From Myxococcales bacterium 68-20 (GTDB taxonomy: Bacteria > Myxococcota_A > Polyangia > Polyangiales > Polyangiaceae), in assembly GCA_001899635.1 (NCBI GenBank), contig MKVQ01000004.1:562023-626022 (forward strand): a DNA stretch of 64,000 bases, in the 5' to 3' direction. Made by a program: the position numbers and the translations under genes. Shown piece by piece: positions 4,419-54,162 of the stretch (positions within the stretch are counted from its first letter, which is position 1; every line of letters starts with the position of its first letter). Below the pieces are notes generated by a model that worked only from the letters and a program-made list of their open reading frames with translations, did no database searches and was not told where the DNA came from.

Positions 4419-4712
4419 GAAGCGAGCGGAGGAGGAACAAGAATGAATCGCGTCCGCACTACGAGATGGAACCGGGTCGGTCAATGCGGAAAGCGAGAGC
4501 GCGGTCCCGTTTTTTCCCGGAGAAAGCGCCAGATGCTGGAGCGCTCTCAAATCGCGTATCCCACATCTAGAAAGGGCGTGCGCGTGGGGTAGCGGGTGCT
4601 AACGAAACCGGTTCCGCGGGGGGCGTGAACGGAGCTCCTGGGGGCCTGCTGTGTAAGCTCGTCGGAGGGTCGGCCGTTGGCCACGAGGTGCGGTCGCGTC
4701 GAAGCCGTTCCT

Positions 4713-4746
4713 CTGCGGGTGGTTGGGGCGCGAGCCCCAAGTTTTT
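4713..4746 (+). repeat. Dispersed hairpin element, copy A
   Basis: CTGCGGGTGG precedes the perfect 7-bp stem TTGGGGC / GCCCCAA with loop GCGA (4723-4740), followed by GTTTTT. On its own it resembles an intrinsic terminator, but it lies about 95 nt upstream of the lipoprotein start at 4841, in the same orientation, and related copies occur at 20176-20201, 32551-32600 and 53741-53769. Confidence 0.7.
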
Positions 4747-4840: not shown

Positions 4841-6256
4841 ATGCGCGCTCTCGTCCTCACCACCGTCATCGCTCTCGCCGCGGCGTGCGCGCCTCGTGAG
4901 CGGGTCATCGTCATCAAGGAGCCGGCGAGCGGCACCGACAAGAACGCGCAGCAGCAGCAAGAGCCGAGCAACAGCGCTCCGGTCGCGACGGATGGCGCCC
5001 CCATCGCCACGAGCGACGAGCCCGACTGGGGAATCAAGGACCCGAGCGACAGCCGCGAGTACGCACGCGTGATCGAGAAGGTCGCCGGCATGGTGAACGA
5101 CGGCGAGCTCCAGGCACGTGTGCTGCGCCGGAAGATGTCGGTCGTCAGCGTGATGTGGGAGGACACCGGGCGCGCGCAGGGCTCGGCGCTGGGGCCGAAC
5201 ATCTCCGACCTCACGCTGCAGGTCACCCGACGCGACGAGGGCGGGCAGTTCCAGTCGGCGGTCATGCCCGTCATCCGGCACCCGAACTTCGCCGACAAGA
5301 CGGGGGACGTCCCGGCCGATCGCTTCTTCGTCCGCGTCGGCAACGAGCAGCGCTCGCCCGGGAGCCTGAAGAGCGTCCCGCTCACCGACGTGCTCAAGAA
5401 CCTGAAGGCGTTCTCGTCGCGTCCGGACTCGATCCTCGGCAACGGGAACATGCTCGCGCCGCGCGACACGCACTTCCTCGTGAGCGCGCAGGCCGTCTTC
5501 CTCCCGATCCCGAAGAGCGGGAAGGCCCAGTTCAACCCCGTGCTCTTCAACTACCAGTCCGCGCCCGGCTCGCCCGCCGTGCTCACGATCCTGGTCACCC
5601 GCCAGGGATCGAGCATGCAGGTGATCGAGAACAAGCGCGAGGACTTCACCTCCGCGGGCTGGGGCCAGGAGCTCTACTTCAACAACAACGGCAACCGCGC
5701 GCCCTTCACTGCCGAGCGAAAGAGCGACGTCGAGCAGCGCATCGCCGCGCAGGGCGGACCGAAGTCGGAGGACGATAGGAGCGCGCTCCAGAAGGGCGCC
5801 GACGTCCTGTTCCTCGTGCAGGTACCGCTGAAGCACCACAACGTCGGGCGTCTCGGCGGCGCGATGCCGGGTGGGATGCCCAAGGCGGGCGGAGCGGGCC
5901 CCGTGATGCTCGCGCCTGCCGCTCCGCCGGCGATGGAGTCCGCGGCCGCAGCCAAAGACAAGAAGAGCGACGTCGAGCAGGCCGTGCTCGGCCATGGCCC
6001 GAACGTCGGACCGTTCAACGAGGGACACGGCCTTCGGTTCGAGCGCGATCCGACGTTTCCGATCCGCATCACCGTGCAGTTCTACAAGGCGACGAGCAAC
6101 GGCATCGTGAGCGACATCGATCTCGACAGCATCTCGCGATCGATCGGCAGCGTGTACGAGCACGCCGAGTTCGTCGGCTCGCTCGTCCTGCCGGAGGGAG
6201 ATCCGCGTCGTCCCACCGCGTGGCAGAAGGTGCCGCGCGAGTGGTTCCCCTGGTGA
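4841..6256 (+). CDS. Predicted lipoprotein of unknown function
   Basis: 471 residues. The start ATG at 4841 gives a clean lipoprotein signal (MRALVLTTVIALAAACAPRE, lipid Cys at about 16) and has GAAAGGA 12-18 nt upstream. A Gln/Ser/Ala linker (30-60) follows, then a large soluble domain with no motif I recognise. Landmarks are EYARVIEKVAGMVNDGEL, SVMWEDTGRAQGSALGPNIS, a Met/Gly/Pro/Ala-rich low-complexity insert (about 345-385), and a conserved-looking C-terminus FPIRITVQFYKATSNGIVSD...YEHAEFVGSLV. The ending suggests a folded C-terminal beta domain. Probable location is the periplasm or outer-membrane inner face. The leader carries hairpin copy A. Confidence 0.75.
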   Translation: MRALVLTTVIALAAACAPRERVIVIKEPASGTDKNAQQQQEPSNSAPVATDGAPIATSDEPDWGIKDPSDSREYARVIEKVAGMVNDGELQARVLRRKMSVVSVMWEDTGRAQGSALGPNISDLTLQVTRRDEGGQFQSAVMPVIRHPNFADKTGDVPADRFFVRVGNEQRSPGSLKSVPLTDVLKNLKAFSSRPDSILGNGNMLAPRDTHFLVSAQAVFLPIPKSGKAQFNPVLFNYQSAPGSPAVLTILVTRQGSSMQVIENKREDFTSAGWGQELYFNNNGNRAPFTAERKSDVEQRIAAQGGPKSEDDRSALQKGADVLFLVQVPLKHHNVGRLGGAMPGGMPKAGGAGPVMLAPAAPPAMESAAAAKDKKSDVEQAVLGHGPNVGPFNEGHGLRFERDPTFPIRITVQFYKATSNGIVSDIDLDSISRSIGSVYEHAEFVGSLVLPEGDPRRPTAWQKVPREWFPW

Positions 6257-18252: not shown

Positions 18253-20091
18253 CTAGGGCGTGACGATCCCGGCCGCGTAGTCGATCGTGACGTACTGGTT
18301 CAGGCCGAACGTGCCCGGCTCGAAGCGCTTCGTTTCGCCGTTCGGCCAGCGGACCTCGAGCGCCGCCTTCGTGACACCGCCCTCGCAGCCCTTGTCGCCG
18401 AGGCCGAAGAGGAGCGCGCGCGCGTCCGCCGAGCTGTACGTGCCGCGGCTCGACTTCACCTCGCGCACCCAGCGCTTCTCGGAGACGATCACGGTGACGC
18501 GCGCGCCGATCGCGTCGCGGTTCACGTTCGTGCCGTCGCCGCGGAGGCGCACCCCGAGCCAGCCGTTCTTCTGACCGATCGTGTTCTCGAAGAGGAAGTT
18601 CGCCCGGCCGGCACCGCCGTTGTCGCGCCCGCCGACGAGGAGATCGAGATCGCCATCGCCGTCGATGTCCGACCACGCGAGGTTCTGTCCCGACTTCACC
18701 CGATCGGTCGCCCCGCTGCGGTCGTTGATGCCGCTGATGAGGCCGACGCTCGTGAACGAGCCGTCCTCGTTTTGGTGCATCAAGCCGAACCACGCCTTCT
18801 GGTCCGGCTTCGAGTAGTTTTCTTCGTACTTCTTGTCGCGCGTGACGGAGAGGTCGATGCGCCCGTCGTTGTCGAAGTCGACCGCGGCCGCGTCGATATC
18901 GCCCTCGTTGAACGGGATCCCTCGATCGAGCGTCACGTTCTCGAACGCGAAGCCGCCTGCCTCGCCCTTGTTCAGGAGCAGCATCGACGGATCGCTCCAC
19001 TTCCGCGACTCGTCGGCGTCGACGGGATGGGAGATCGTCGCCAGCCAGATGTCCATGTTGCCGTCGCCGTCGATGTCCTGGCAGTCGATCCCGAAGCCGT
19101 TCGACCCGACGTACTTCGAGGGATCCACCGGCTGCTCGTCACGGCCCTTGCCGGTCGACGCGAGATAGGAGTTGCCGGTCGCGAGCGCGTTGAAGCCGCG
19201 CTTCGTGGCGACGTTGGTGAACACGCCGGCACCGTCGTTCTGCCAGAGCGCACGCCAGCCGAGCCCGACGCTGACGCCGTAGTGCGAGACGAAGATGTCG
19301 AGGTCGCCGTCGTTGTCGTAGTCGCACGCGACCACGCCGTTCGTCGGCTGCGCCGGCCGCTTCTTCAGGTTCTCCGATGCGTCGCTGAACGTCCCGTCGC
19401 CGTTGCCGAAGTAGAGCTGGTCGAGCGCCCCCTGCGAGGTGCCGCCCGCACCGACGTACAGATCGAGCCGCCCGTCGCCGTTGAAATCGGCGAAGACCCC
19501 GTTCGCCGCGAGGGCTGCCTTCTCGAGGCCCGAGCTCTCCTTCTTCGTGAAGTGGCCCTTGCCGTCGTTCAGGTAGAGCGCCGACGTCTCGCCCTCGAGC
19601 GCGATGTCGAGGCCGGCGAAGCAATCCTGATCGCCGTCGTTGTCCACGTCCGCGAAGACGAAGAAGCCCGCCTGCACCCCGCGCAAGCCGGACTCGTCGG
19701 AGAAGTCGCGGAACGTCTTGTCGCCGTTGTTGAGGAAGACGAGGTGCTCGAACGGGATCCCCTTCTGCGGGTTGGGAAAGAGGCTGTGAGCCACGATGTC
19801 GTCGCGACCGTCACCGTCGATGTCCGCGAACGCGAGGCGACTGTGGTCGTTGATCGGGATCGGTACCGTGGGGTTCGGGACGAAGTTGTCCTTCTGGATC
19901 CCGGATGGCGCCGAGATGTCGACGAAGAAGTCCTCGCCGGGCGCCGTGAGCGGCCGCTCGGTGCACGCGAGCACCGGCCCGGGAGCGCCGCCGTCCGCCG
20001 CGTCTCCGCCTGCCGTCGCGTCCGACGAGCAGGCCGCGACCGAGAAGACCGAGAGTCCGAGGAGGTACGCGAGGTTTGTCCGGGTGGTCAT
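18253..20091 (-). CDS. FG-GAP/ASPIC-UnbV (CRTAC1-type) lipoprotein
   Basis: 612 residues from ATG 20091 (MTTRTNLAYLLGLSVFSVAA then CSSD lipobox). The body holds at least six FG-GAP/VCBS beta-propeller repeats with Ca-binding DxDxDGxxD loops: FADIDGDGRDDIV, FADVDNDGDQDCF, FADFNGDGRLDLYV, CDYDNDGDLDIFV, CQDIDGDGNMDIWL, AVDFDNDGRIDLSV and SDIDGDGDLDLLVGG. The C-terminal ASPIC/UnbV domain reads GWLGVRLRGDGTNVNRDAIG, ARVTV, SRGTYSSADARALLFGLG and LEVRWPNGETKRF. Such proteins are exported, Ca-stabilised propellers, probably in adhesion or glycan binding. The leader contains hairpin copy D. Confidence 0.92.
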   Translation of the reverse strand: MTTRTNLAYLLGLSVFSVAACSSDATAGGDAADGGAPGPVLACTERPLTAPGEDFFVDISAPSGIQKDNFVPNPTVPIPINDHSRLAFADIDGDGRDDIVAHSLFPNPQKGIPFEHLVFLNNGDKTFRDFSDESGLRGVQAGFFVFADVDNDGDQDCFAGLDIALEGETSALYLNDGKGHFTKKESSGLEKAALAANGVFADFNGDGRLDLYVGAGGTSQGALDQLYFGNGDGTFSDASENLKKRPAQPTNGVVACDYDNDGDLDIFVSHYGVSVGLGWRALWQNDGAGVFTNVATKRGFNALATGNSYLASTGKGRDEQPVDPSKYVGSNGFGIDCQDIDGDGNMDIWLATISHPVDADESRKWSDPSMLLLNKGEAGGFAFENVTLDRGIPFNEGDIDAAAVDFDNDGRIDLSVTRDKKYEENYSKPDQKAWFGLMHQNEDGSFTSVGLISGINDRSGATDRVKSGQNLAWSDIDGDGDLDLLVGGRDNGGAGRANFLFENTIGQKNGWLGVRLRGDGTNVNRDAIGARVTVIVSEKRWVREVKSSRGTYSSADARALLFGLGDKGCEGGVTKAALEVRWPNGETKRFEPGTFGLNQYVTIDYAAGIVTP

Positions 20092-20175
20092 CTCGAGCCG
20101 TGGAGTAGCACGTCCTTTTACCTCGTAAAGCGAACGGAGCCCCTCCCAGCGGCCGCCTCCGCCCCAACAAACGAG

Positions 20176-20201
20176 GTCGGGGCTCGCGTCCCAACCACCC
20201 C
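20176..20201 (-). repeat. Dispersed hairpin element, copy D (diverged)
   Basis: On the minus strand GGGGTGGTTGGGACGCGAGC then CCCGAC resembles the element at 4713-4746, with changed stem bases. It lies about 85-110 nt upstream of the ATG of the FG-GAP lipoprotein and in the same orientation as that gene. Confidence 0.5.
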
Positions 20202-20365
20202 AGACGAAGCGCGGAGTGGAACCGTGCGAACGACGCGATGACGCGGCGAGACGCGGTCCGCGCGACGCCGCCGGCGCACCGAACGACACCGATGACGGCC
20301 CGAAAATAGGTGGCACCTGCGCTGCACTTGACGCCCCGGACCTCCCGCGCCAGTTAGGGTAGGCC

Positions 20366-31495: not shown

Positions 31496-32485
31496 TCAGG
31501 TCGACCACGGCGGGGTACAGGCGACCTCGCGAACCACGAAGAATCCGTCTTCGCCCTGCCCCTGGTAGCGCGGCATCAGGAGCAGCCCTGTTTCCGGCGC
31601 ACGCACCGGACCACGCCGATCACGGGCGATGATTTGTTCCGCCTCGATCGGGTCGAAGCCCGCGAAGCCCTCGAGCATCTCGAACTCGTCGCCGACCTTG
31701 ACGACATGGCGATGCCGGACCTCCACGACGAGAGGTCGACTGCCTGGCGACGGACGGATCGCGGCGAGCTGAGCGTCCTCGGCAGGGACGTGGGCTGCGT
31801 CGAGCGCTCCGACGGCGACGAGGAGCATCCAGACGGCCCCGATGTGCCGCTGGACCGCACGAGGGTCCTCGTGCTGCCCCGCCTCGAAGGAGATGCCGAC
31901 ATGACCGCGAGCGGAGGCCCAGGTCAACATGGACGCGCCCACGACCTTCTCGAGCCCGAGCACCACGTTGACGGACAACGCACAAGCGAGGCGGCGGTTC
32001 GCGCTCGTATCGGAGAAGCACACGAAGGGCTCCGTCGGGCCGGACGTCGTGTGGAGGTCGAGGAAGACGAGCCGCGAGGGCTCACGCTCGAGCGCGAGGA
32101 TCTCGCGGTGGAGCTCACGCTGCTCGTGATCTTCCGTGGTGAGCGCATCCTCCGGAGCGGCGTGGAGACGTGTGAGCTCGGGCTCGTGCCAGCCGCGGTT
32201 CAGATCCCGTGACACGAACCGGACACCATGCTCGAGCGCACGGCGGTTGCCCGTGAACGCGATGACCTTGCCCCGGAGCACGCTACGGCGAGCGGCGAGA
32301 TCGGCGAGGACGGCGCGCGCAGCGAGCATCCCCGCCGGCTCGTTGCCGTGGATGCCCCCCGTGATCACGACCGTTGGCCCCTCGGCGGCGCCCGCGACGA
32401 CTCCGAGGCAACGCGGAGCACTTGCGCGACGCGACTCGACCGGGCCAAAAGCTCCGCCCGAGGCTCCGTGTGGACCTCCGCTCAT
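31496..32485 (-). CDS. Succinylglutamate desuccinylase/aspartoacylase family deacylase
   Basis: 329 residues from ATG 32485; a frame extension to 32527 has no support. The M14-like zinc site is GGIHGNEPAGMLAARAV (His-x2-Glu) plus LVFLDLHTTSGPTEPF (second His), with SRDLNRGWH (Arg/Asn substrate residues) between them, and SFEAGQHEDPRA as the usual catalytic Glu region. Members hydrolyse N-acyl amino acids or small amides. It is the first gene of the minus-strand operon running through the ligase, prs and pncB. Confidence 0.87.
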   Translation of the reverse strand: MSGGPHGASGGAFGPVESRRASAPRCLGVVAGAAEGPTVVITGGIHGNEPAGMLAARAVLADLAARRSVLRGKVIAFTGNRRALEHGVRFVSRDLNRGWHEPELTRLHAAPEDALTTEDHEQRELHREILALEREPSRLVFLDLHTTSGPTEPFVCFSDTSANRRLACALSVNVVLGLEKVVGASMLTWASARGHVGISFEAGQHEDPRAVQRHIGAVWMLLVAVGALDAAHVPAEDAQLAAIRPSPGSRPLVVEVRHRHVVKVGDEFEMLEGFAGFDPIEAEQIIARDRRGPVRAPETGLLLMPRYQGQGEDGFFVVREVACTPPWST

Positions 32486-32550
32486 GCTTCGAGGCGAGCA
32501 TGCAGCGTGCCCGCGACGGATCGACATCCGCTTCGCTGACCGCGAGCGCC

Positions 32551-32600
32551 GCGGGTGGTTGGGGCAACGACTGCGGGTGGTTGGGGTGCAACCCCAAGTT
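32551..32600 (+). repeat. Dispersed hairpin element, copy B (doubled 5' part)
   Basis: GCGGGTGGTTGGGGCAACGA (32551-32570) is followed at once by CTGCGGGTGGTTGGGGTGCA and ACCCCAAGTT. The stem TTGGGGT / ACCCCAA has a 3-nt loop (32581-32597). The 5' half of the element is thus present twice. It lies 66-115 bp upstream of the deacylase operon start but on the opposite strand to it. Confidence 0.7.
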
Positions 32601-32629
32601 CGGGGTTCGCGGTCATGAGGCCATCAGAG

Positions 32630-51171: not shown

Positions 51172-51995
51172 TGAGCCCCGCTCGTCATTGCGGTCGAACG
51201 GGCATCCGCATCGACCTTGGGGTGCAGGAGGAAGAGGACCGTACCGACGCCCGCTCCGACGAGGCCGACGACCAGCGAGATATCGGCGAGCGTCACCGTC
51301 GTCGCGACCGAATCACGCTCCGAGATCGAGCAACGTTGCCCGCATGACGCTGCGTAGCCGTCGTAGTCGAGGCGCGCTTTCATAGCGAAGACCGAGAACG
51401 ACAGCAGACCAGCGGCCCCGATCCCCCAAGCCGTCCAGCTCGACGTAGGAATGACCGTACGCGCCGACCGTTCCGATGCTGGTGAAGGGATTGGCGGCCG
51501 CGACCGTGGAGGAACCTGCTCCGCGACGAGCTTGCCGACGATGACACGGTCCTTCTCCCCTTGCGCCGCGATGATCTCCGTCTCGAACGGCTTGCTCGCC
51601 GGGCGCGTGATCCGAATGCGATATTTTCCCGGGTCGACCTCGACAGCACGACCGTCGAGATCGAGCGTTCGATCGTCGAGAAGGACGCTGGCGTCGGCTA
51701 TGTCCCGACCGCTGTCGTCGACGACACGGATGACGAGCGTCGGGATCTTCTTCCCGACATCGCTCAGCCAGTCACCACAATAGGTTGGTATGGGAGCGGG
51801 ACATTCGCTCTGCGCGCACTTCTGGAAATGCGCACGCGCCTCCAAGAGGTGACCTTGGTCACGCACCACCTGCCCGTCGGACGCCGCGGCCATGCAGTCC
51901 TTGTCGGCTGCGTGCGCGACGTTTATCGATGCGAGACCGAACGCGATGACGGCGATGCCGATCGTCGACAGGCGAAGCCAAGGACACGACCTCAT
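51168..51995 (-). CDS. Exported membrane protein with PEGA-like domain
   Basis: 275 residues from ATG 51995, chosen because ATGA then overlaps the kinase stop by 4 bp; GTG 52001 is also possible. The signal peptide ends INVAHA. KDCMAAASDGQVVRDQGHLL begins a small helical Cys domain (with SECPAPIPTYCGDWL). A PEGA/carboxypeptidase-regulatory-type beta domain follows (TLVIRVVDDSGRDIADASVL, VEVDPGKYRIRI). Two membrane segments (AWGIGAAGLLSFSVFAM and LVVGLVGAGVGTVLFLL) flank a periplasmic loop with DGYAASCGQRCS. Genes of this design sit beside Ser/Thr kinases throughout Polyangia, suggesting a partner or sensor role. Confidence 0.8.
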   Translation of the reverse strand: MRSCPWLRLSTIGIAVIAFGLASINVAHAADKDCMAAASDGQVVRDQGHLLEARAHFQKCAQSECPAPIPTYCGDWLSDVGKKIPTLVIRVVDDSGRDIADASVLLDDRTLDLDGRAVEVDPGKYRIRITRPASKPFETEIIAAQGEKDRVIVGKLVAEQVPPRSRPPIPSPASERSARTVIPTSSWTAWGIGAAGLLSFSVFAMKARLDYDGYAASCGQRCSISERDSVATTVTLADISLVVGLVGAGVGTVLFLLHPKVDADARSTAMTSGAQ

Positions 51996-53521
51996 CGGCA
52001 CACCTCCGTGAATTTCGTATGACCTGCGCTATCCACCGACGGAACGATGCGGCACTTGCGGGATGGGGATGCCGCAGCAGCCCCCGTCGAATCCGGCCTC
52101 GTGCCCGACGATGTCGGCGCCGTCCGGATGCCGCGGCGCGGCAGCGCCGGCGGTTCGTCCGCTCCCATCGCCACCGGCGCGGACGATGCCGCGGTCGCCG
52201 TCGTCACCGCGACGCTCGTGCCGGATGGTGCAGGTGAGGACGCCGATGACGTGACCGTCGCCGCCATCGATGTCGAGGCGCCGGGCGAGAAGGGGGCCGG
52301 CGAAGGCTTCGTCGCGGTCATCGCGAAAAGGACGCCCGCGAGTACTAGTGCGAAGAGGATCGTGAGTGTCGGGAACAGGCTGCGTGCTCGAGGAGGCAGA
52401 TCGGCTCCCGTCCAGTAGGACGGATTGGATGATGGCTCGCGCGAAGCGCCTTCTCGACCATCGTCGCTCCTTCCGGTCAGGGTCTCCGCTTCGCCAGCGA
52501 TGTTCTCGTCACCGACCTGCGGCGGCGCGGGAGGCCCGAGGCCGACGGCCGTGCCGGTCGGCCCGCCCATCGCACGCTGCAGAGCCGCGAGGGACTTCTC
52601 GCGCATCTCGAGCAGATGCGGACGTTCCGCTCGAAGCCAATCACCGATCTCCGCCGCATGTGCGACATCCGTCGCCTTGCGCAGAGCAGTTCCCATATCC
52701 CTCGCGCTGACGAAGCGGTCCGCTGGCGCTCGCTCGACAGCGCGCATGACGACCGCGTCGAGCTCGTGCGGCACGTCGACGGAGAGCTCGCTTGGAGCCG
52801 CGATCGCAAGGTCGAGCACGGCTCGCATGTTCTCCGCCATCGAGTCGAAGTCGATCAGGCGTCGTCCTGTGATCGTCTCCCAGAGCACGACGCCAGCGGC
52901 GTAGATGTCCGTTTGCGCGGTGAGCGGCGTTCCGAGCAACTGCTCCGGCGCCATGTACGAGATCTTTCCCTTCACCGATCCGTCGCCGGTCGAGTGCACT
53001 CGCCCCGCGGCCCTCGAGATCCCGAAGTCGGCGATCTTCGCCACTCCCTGAAAGCTCACGAGGACGTTCTGCGGGGAGACATCACGGTGGATGATGTCGA
53101 GCGCCTCGCCATTCTCATCGGTTGCCTCGTGTGCGGCGTGAAGCCCATCGAGCATTGCGGCGATGATCCCGACCCCGATCCTGAGGGGCACCGGGTTCTG
53201 ATCGGCCAGCCGCCGGAGGATCTGACTCAACGAAGCGCCATGGACGTACTCCATGACAAGATAGAGCTCGTCCAGCTCTTCGAGGACGTCGAGCGTCATG
53301 ACGATGTTCGCGTGCGTGAGCGCCGAGGTGACGCGCGCCTCGTCCTGGAAGAGCGTCATGAACTCGGGGTCACGCCCGTACTGGGCGTGAAGGCGCTTCA
53401 TCGCAACCGTCTTGCCGAAGCCGCCTCTGCCAAGCATCCGCCCGAGATGGACGGAAGCCATCCCCCCCGACGCAATCTCGGGCCCCAAGACGTAGCGACC
53501 GACGCGCCGTCCCTGCATCAC
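51992..53521 (-). CDS. Membrane-anchored Ser/Thr protein kinase (second)
   Basis: 509 residues. Kinase motifs are EIASGGMASVHLGRM (P-loop), VAMKRLH (Lys), IIHRDVSPQNVLV (catalytic loop; HRDVSPQN form), IADFGISRAAG (DFG), GKISYMAPEQLLG (activation segment) and DIYAAGVVLWETITG. A Ser/Gly/Pro linker and one membrane helix (FPTLTILFALVLAGVLFAM, about 383-402) are followed by a Ser/Ala/Thr-rich periplasmic tail with terminal KCRIVPSVDSAGHTKFTEVC. The first gene of the operon with the PEGA-like and MopE-like genes. Its leader contains hairpin copy C. Confidence 0.94.
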   Translation of the reverse strand: MMQGRRVGRYVLGPEIASGGMASVHLGRMLGRGGFGKTVAMKRLHAQYGRDPEFMTLFQDEARVTSALTHANIVMTLDVLEELDELYLVMEYVHGASLSQILRRLADQNPVPLRIGVGIIAAMLDGLHAAHEATDENGEALDIIHRDVSPQNVLVSFQGVAKIADFGISRAAGRVHSTGDGSVKGKISYMAPEQLLGTPLTAQTDIYAAGVVLWETITGRRLIDFDSMAENMRAVLDLAIAAPSELSVDVPHELDAVVMRAVERAPADRFVSARDMGTALRKATDVAHAAEIGDWLRAERPHLLEMREKSLAALQRAMGGPTGTAVGLGPPAPPQVGDENIAGEAETLTGRSDDGREGASREPSSNPSYWTGADLPPRARSLFPTLTILFALVLAGVLFAMTATKPSPAPFSPGASTSMAATVTSSASSPAPSGTSVAVTTATAASSAPVAMGADEPPALPRRGIRTAPTSSGTRPDSTGAAAASPSRKCRIVPSVDSAGHTKFTEVCR

Positions 53522-54162
53522 TTCATCCGGATGCTATCAGCGCAATAGCGACTGGCCACAGACGCAACGAATGCTTCTTTGCATGTCGCTCAATCGATCT
53601 AGACGCAGAGACAGGAGCAAGCACGAACTGTCGCCGCACCGGAGGTTCAATCGCCGCAGTCGTACTTCCCGTCGCAGACCAGGGAGCGTCGAAGCCGCGC
53701 CCGAGACCGAGGCGGAGCCTTCATGGAGCGCGGCGCTCGAACTTGGGGCTCGCGCCCAACCACCCGCAGTGGCGCCTTCGGCGCGAGTCGAATTCCGAAG
53801 CATGGGTGATCGAACCCGCCGAAGAAGCGCACGTCATGCACCAGATGCGAACGCGCGACTGGAGCAACGAAGGCCATGCGGGCACCTCCCGTCGAACGAT
53901 TCGCGCTGTTCGAAAGCGGGACCACTCTGCTGCCTTCACGATTGATTCAATTGGCAACGTTGCCGAGCTACTCGCATTGAGATGCATCCCAACACCGCCA
54001 CCAGAGACAGGGGCCGATCGCTCGGGCGCCCTTCCATCTCTGCGATTGTCAGATCTCATTGGGAGCTTTGCGCGTCCCTGCTCGTGATCCGCGGGCTTGA
54101 CTCGACTGCACACCTCGGATGTCCTTTCGCCTTCCACTGCAGCGAGGGGATGGACGCGCACC
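53522..54162. other. Intergenic region with hairpin copy C
   Basis: 641 bp between the kinase operon and the 1292-residue protein gene. It contains the dispersed hairpin (53741-53769). Short frames such as 53537-53803 minus and 53743-54087 plus read through the hairpin repeat (GLAPNHPQW) and lack coding support. GAGGGGA before 54163 is a plausible ribosome-binding site. Confidence 0.5.
53741..53769 (-). repeat. Dispersed hairpin element, copy C
   Basis: On the minus strand CTGCGGGTGG then TTGGGCGCGAGCCCCAAGT matches copy A except for one missing G in the stem. It lies about 220-250 nt upstream of the Ser/Thr kinase ATG, in the kinase's orientation. Confidence 0.7.

Follow-up and report, generated by a model that had tools for sequence, protein, structure and literature searches.

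A lineage-restricted family of REP-like, two-hairpin repeats dispersed through the genome of a Labilithrix-like soil bacterium

The hairpin that recurs in the window, by which we mean the whole 64,000-nucleotide stretch of DNA analysed here, belongs to a new, lineage-restricted family of repetitive extragenic palindromes (REPs) whose unusual features are a two-hairpin unit, a hairpin loop that acts as an insertion hot spot and a missing link to RAYT genes. The genome to which the window belongs (G000; 11.89 Mb in 52 contigs) contains about 150 dispersed copies, and the host is a Labilithrix-like soil bacterium. The copies are probably miniature mobile repeats specific to this lineage and moved in trans by a Y1-type enzyme, and a role as a gene-control switch is very unlikely.

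In the window, the preliminary description had placed the hairpin at four positions, and it is present at all of them. When up to 3 mismatches are allowed, a 25-nt pattern matches three copies (4717, 20176 on the minus strand and 32575; 0.00 expected from 100 shuffles). The fourth, at 53741 on the minus strand, lacks one G and was picked up by a covariance model (R1, built from 17 copies), which recovers four of four. The copies and their neighbouring genes are as follows.

4684..4746, plus strand: copy 1, 56.6 bits; its 3' module, CTGCGGGTGGTTGGGGCGCGAGCCCCAAGTT at 4713-4743, is intact, its 5' hairpin either diverged or absent
4841..6256, plus strand: neighbour of copy 1; called a lipoprotein in the preliminary description, no Pfam match
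18253..20091, minus strand: neighbour of copy 2; FG-GAP_3 / UnbV_ASPIC (Pfam), start codon estimated
20171..20221, minus strand: copy 2, 22.3 bits, diverged; GGGTGGTTGGGACGCGAGCCCCGAC at 20176-20200
31496..32485, minus strand: neighbour of copy 3; AstE_AspA_cat deacylase (Pfam), start estimated
32540..32603, plus strand: copy 3, 34.3 bits; two GGGTGGTTGGGG units in tandem
51992..53521, minus strand: neighbour of copy 4; protein kinase (Pfam)
53737..53797, minus strand: copy 4, 60.3 bits, full length; 5' hairpin GCGCCGAAGGCGC, left target AATTC; the 3' stem lacks one G

Pfam agrees with the earlier naming of the FG-GAP/ASPIC protein, the AstE/AspA-type deacylase and the kinase, and gives no match for the protein at 4841. 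The gene finder put the start of the copy 2 neighbour further upstream, where it overlaps the copy itself, and the flanks of copy 3 pair as an inverted repeat, GACCGCGA / TCGCGGTC.

The hairpin first described is real but forms the 3' half of a unit that reaches about 30 nt further 5' into a second hairpin. Inspection of 30 loci gives a true unit of about 54-59 nt, composed of a 5' hairpin, then GTGG and a TTGGGG...CCCCAA hairpin, and a GTTC end. Its consensus, to the right of a flanking AATTC, is RACGMGSGCC-GAA-GGCSCACC-WCTGCG-GGTGG-TTGGGGCGCGAGCCCCAA-GTTC. There are two forms of the 5' hairpin, GGGCC/GGCCC and GCGCC/GGCGC, and it is absent from some copies; the 3' palindrome (TTGGGGC-GCGA-GCCCCAA) has a 7-bp stem and a 4-nt loop. 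The doubled 5' half reported at 32551 is a 21-nt internal tandem unit found in other copies too: 13 of 117 copies carry 2-5 exact GGGTGGTTGG units within or just upstream of the match. At the aligned tag position 91 of 117 copies read GTRG (GTGG 85, GTAG 6); the 30 pattern-found loci carry GTGG by search design. Both stems show compensatory changes. In an alignment of 117 copies that was fitted to the model, so that all its figures are biased in the model's favour, 8 of 11 modelled pairs have changed on both sides, with 59 double-changed cells compared with 22.0 (sd 3.4) after shuffling and 5-20 in slid-partner controls; for the 3' stem, double changes occur in 5 of 6 modelled pairs and 94.9% of cells are paired.

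Several searches bear on the size of the family. The exact core, GGGTGGTTGGGGN{2,9}CCCCAA, occurs 51 times in the genome and its reversed control not once, while R1 gives at least 147 matches. A 400-kb sample picked regardless of matches held 3 at ≥30 bits and 5 at ≥22 bits, a density that corresponds to roughly 90-150 copies genome-wide. With our own gene finder, which predicts about 76% coding sequence and whose start codons are unreliable, 122 of 126 rows are intergenic and four lie inside ORFs; two of the rows (L009, L010) duplicate window copies, and the intergenic count includes 11 that overlap predicted gene ends (9 at the 5' end, 2 at the 3' end). The preliminary description would have given up its proposals had the motif been rare elsewhere in the genome, equally common in coding DNA or devoid of conserved stems, and none of these is the case. 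Among the identities it offered, the REP reading has held up, given a GTGG tag with a palindrome, about 150 copies, an intergenic location and stem-preserving changes.

As defined in the consulted sections of PMC3686654, a REP consists of a 5' GT(A/G)G followed by a downstream palindrome, and the element, with its GTRG tag and palindrome, is a REP in this sense. GTGG stands at the foot of the stem, directly before TTGGGG, and the copies are many (at least 147) and almost all intergenic. The RNAMotif filter described in the consulted part of PMC6006769 looks for at least three G/C among the first four stem bases and TTGG has two, but this is a search filter that lies outside the definition in the consulted sections of PMC3686654. 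Further similarities to GTAG- and GTGG-tagged REPs are the existence of sub-families and of occasional intragenic copies. Unlike those REPs, the element has a second, unrelated hairpin in front of its palindrome, and its units keep a single orientation and expand as 21-nt tandems rather than forming head-to-head dimers. REPIN and BIME arrangements differ in the same way, since the six neighbouring pairs less than 200 nt apart among the 147 matches listed are all direct and none is inverted; two inverted pairs (L175, L217) occur among 100 loci examined. The stem TTGGGG..CCCCAA is absent from the REPs in Tables 1-2 of PMC3686654. A mild bias towards divergent spacers separates the element from the REPs covered in the consulted text of PMC3733652, which reports GTAG repeats in all proteobacterial divisions. 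Similarities also exist with the Rickettsia palindromic elements (RPE) of the CGTC superfamily described there, which are short palindromes that may sit in frame in ORFs and have no known dedicated transposase, but the element lacks the CGTC tag and is intergenic in the proportion given above. No myxobacterial REP family was found described in a literature search, and the text of PMC3733652, figures and supplements aside, names none of the myxobacterial genera searched for.

Insertion can be followed most directly at two kinds of site. One copy lies in frame within the ORF of an Lhr helicase (L190:3001-3064; DELGARAPTTRSGGSSGRVEYV), to which it adds about 20 residues. It is absent from all 14 aligned relatives (31 relatives matched the stretch), including G003 and G006, whose matched stretches are 85% (residues 209-500) and 83% identical, respectively. 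The other three ORF copies probably lie in linkers, two of them in kinases and one in a TPR protein, as named from sequence reading. The second kind of site is another dispersed hairpin repeat, CGTCCAA-NNC-TTGGACG (CCCTCGAGCTCCCCGAATCGTCCAA-NNC-TTGGACGGCTCTTCAG), discovered through flanks shared between element copies. A search of the genome found 12 of these, of which seven are empty, with a bare 3-4-nt loop, and five are filled by the element; L039, found separately, brings the filled repeats to six. The comparison of filled and empty loops therefore covers these 12 repeats, all with at most 3 mismatches to a single pattern, and L039. When five filled copies were compared (L288 being left out), four were closest in element sequence to copies outside the second repeat and one was a tie, which makes the loop insertions look like separate, independent events. 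Taken with the insertion in a coding gene, the seven empty and six filled versions of one hairpin target provide natural before/after sites, from which target choice and element ends can be read directly. Such behaviours are already known, as the consulted part of PMC3733652 reports REPs within palindromes (T. roseum GTAG-23, A. variabilis GTAG-15) and in repair genes. At L288 (G000:C18:139819-139843) the element in the filled loop is longer and diverged and contains several internal units; unit amplification and loop insertion thus occur together at this locus.

The ends of the element are sharp: among the 75 best copies, conservation begins at AATTC and stops at GTTC. In the six filled loops the left triplets are CTC, CGC, CTC, TTC, GTC and TTC, varying as they do in empty loops, and the right side is GTTC in four. 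This suggests that the unit is placed after its target and brings its own GTTC end, probably without duplication. Equal triplets stand on both sides in two of the six loops, which would also fit a 3-nt target duplication. A duplication test on the 75 best copies gave a best z of 3.06 over about 1,080 choices of offset and width, which is not significant.

Sites of the attC type have the form RYYYAAC ... GTTRRRY. The 5' end of the element can be read in this way and the 3' end does not fit, so an attC-like reading was set aside.

In the layout of IS200 and REP elements, as given in the consulted part of PMC6006769, a guide tetranucleotide lies at the hairpin foot, the target borders the left end, and the right end carries a terminal tetranucleotide. 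The element resembles the IS200/IS605 elements of that account in a target-like sequence outside its left end, a conserved right end, two subterminal hairpins and the lack of clear duplication, and differs from them in being about 54 nt long and without tnpA or tnpB; guide-target pairing would here be hypothetical. It is from this layout that we infer Y1 movement in trans. Copies would spread as folded single strands. The unit would insert immediately 3' of a short target, such as AAYTC, a related sequence or a hairpin loop of the form AANNC, with no clear target duplication and with its terminal GTTC supplied by the unit itself. As in IS200/IS605 and REP elements, the tetranucleotide at the hairpin foot would guide a Y1 HUH transposase, which may be an unlinked RAYT-like protein or one that has since been lost. 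Copies would then persist mainly through tolerated insertion between genes, with effects on neighbouring genes being incidental.

REPs usually have a RAYT as their partner, which does not fit here. With PF01797 at E ≤ 0.001 no RAYT was found in G000, G003 or G006. At E ≤ 10 weak matches appear in G000, and NF047646 shows them to be RAYT-like; at E ≤ 0.05 this model finds 10 RAYT-like genes in G000, all below its curated cut-off. HUH and Tyr...Asn motifs are readable in the five proteins that were extracted. The genes are located as follows.

L300-L309: RAYT-like genes on G000 contigs C14, C25, C30, C13, C48, C49, C28, C43, C23 and C6

These Y1 transposase genes are apparently of two types and are missed at the PF01797 and NF047646 cut-offs. 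Up to 1.5 kb on either side of them, none of the 10 loci holds a copy of the element, although the genes on C25, C28 and C30 lie less than 1.3 kb from a contig end and their flanks are incomplete. Similarly, none of 25 RAYT-like loci in other genomes of the genus (L310-L334) holds a copy (best E 0.16), and a repeat search in the surroundings of six RAYT-like loci was uninformative. NF047646 has no match at E ≤ 0.001 in G003, G006 (83% complete) or G001, while G004, G005 and G009, which have the most RAYT-like genes after G000, have no clear copy (G009 has two weak matches). In these respects the family is unlike the REPtron, or RAYT-associated REP, as no RAYT was found beside a copy. Since RAYT-like genes in the genus neither adjoin nor co-occur with the copies, the family offers a test case for REPs moved in trans or by non-RAYT enzymes. 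Separately, short in-frame tandem repeats (CLACLAC, RTQRRTDS, LALALA) were observed before or beside the RAYT-like domains of L290, L292 and L298. A tentative reading is that of an orphan two-hairpin REP-like element, mobilised in trans, for which hairpin loops are landing sites and insertion in 3-nt AANNC loops (in the second hairpin, at gene 3' ends) has been repeated and independent, so that one mobile palindrome comes to lie within another; it might be mobilised by a RAYT that is distant and unlinked, or by an enzyme so far not recognised as REP-mobilising.

The absence of any RAYT-like gene linked to copies, together with negative co-occurrence across the genus, also gives some room to movement by non-Y1 means, which we regard as doubtful. 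On this account a non-autonomous element would be moved by a DDE transposase with a short duplication, by a hairpin-specific recombinase, or by template switching or gene conversion between hairpins. Slippage could make the tandem units found in 13 of 117 copies, and there is weak complementarity between the flanks at the junction: without second-repeat copies it is 2.80 compared with 2.48 (sd 0.09), a z of 3.3, with seven other offsets at -1.2 to 2.0. When wobble pairs were allowed the mean was 4.65 compared with 4.36 (sd 0.10), with 11 stems of at least 7 against a mean of 5.7 (largest shuffle 16). Flanking stems of at least 6 bp outside the second repeat are not clearly enriched (0.027 compared with 0.015, sd 0.012). 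However, the consensus has no terminal inverted repeat, the duplication signal is not significant, and the AAYTC flank and GTTC end fit IS200-like elements. Moreover, sharp-ended insertions in unrelated sequence argue against plain gene conversion.

The core minus its first two bases was found, among 96 genomes including its own, in G000 and once each in G003 and G017; since the reversed control matched two of the 96 (once each in G039 and G083), the single G017 match is at chance level. Among 38 genomes searched with R1, 12 had a match at E ≤ 0.01, with clear copies in G000, G003 and G006; the weak matches in the other nine (E 1e-4 to 0.01; L133-L141) looked coding-like by eye and were not counted. 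In 108 family genomes under stricter filters, these three genomes and two weak single matches pass E 1e-4. In a collection of 84,980 species, from which the own genome is possibly absent, the exact core gives 40 stretches including the G003 copy, with about 60 expected by chance on a rough uniform-base estimate. There was no exact core match in viral contigs and no blastn match in plasmids. G003 shares sequence with contig JAHBWA010000019.1 of a Labilithrix sp. MAG, a genus of the Polyangiales in the Myxococcota. G003 and G006 have two diverged copies in stretches that are homologous between them (L143/L148, L150/L151), which suggests that the family is old there, while the many near-identical copies in G000 suggest a more recent amplification in that genome. 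For REPs elsewhere, binding of IHF, DNA polymerase I and gyrase has been reported (consulted part of PMC6006769), and the core pattern is exact in 51 copies, as might be expected of a selected DNA site for a protein that organises the chromosome, such as gyrase or IHF, which has been spread and kept for that function. We consider this improbable: the Lhr insertion is lineage-specific, and among the genomes of the genus and family that were searched, clear copies are restricted to G000, G003 and G006, which makes a core chromosome function unlikely.

Least probable is that the repeat is a cis-acting leader or attenuator, an intrinsic terminator or a small-RNA gene family, readings that were rejected on orientation, position, T-runs, Rfam and folding energies. 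Its attraction lay in the conserved stems with compensatory changes and in the window copies, which lie upstream of starts, with one ending in TTTTT and three of four sharing the orientation of their gene (copy 32551 being antisense to the deacylase). This orientation match is not general, because across the genome copies in co-directional spacers lie 24 times on the same strand as the genes and 30 times on the opposite one; in divergent spacers 28 match the strand of the nearer gene and 19 oppose it. All spacer types are occupied. Of the intergenic rows, 117 have a neighbour on each side; 48 of these are in divergent, 55 in co-directional and 14 in convergent spacers, compared with 53, 101 and 28 of 182 background spacers of at least 100 nt, so that divergent spacers are mildly enriched (48/117 compared with 53/182, Fisher p 0.045). 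The presence of copies in every spacer type and on either strand, with four in ORFs, speaks against both the leader attenuator and the small RNA that had been suggested. The terminator-like TTTTT does follow the copy at 4713 but is no feature of the family, as a T4 run follows just 5 of 117 copies. Rfam gave no family at gathering score in the window, and in four loci nothing over the element, the two weak sub-threshold matches both lying outside it. Single copies have unremarkable folding energies (z -1.6 to 0.05), and the Lhr copy is missing in relatives.

The second hairpin repeat has a context of its own. It is a double-hairpin repeat, and its loci, which read TCGAGGGGTTTCACCCCTCGAGCTCCCCGAATCGTCCAA-NNN-TTGGACGGCTCTTCAG, are L277-L288 on G000 contigs C5, C6, C16, C18, C21, C24, C41 and C43. 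At 9 of the 12 the gene on the right side ends towards the repeat, on the opposite strand, and this second repeat is possibly a repeated terminator.
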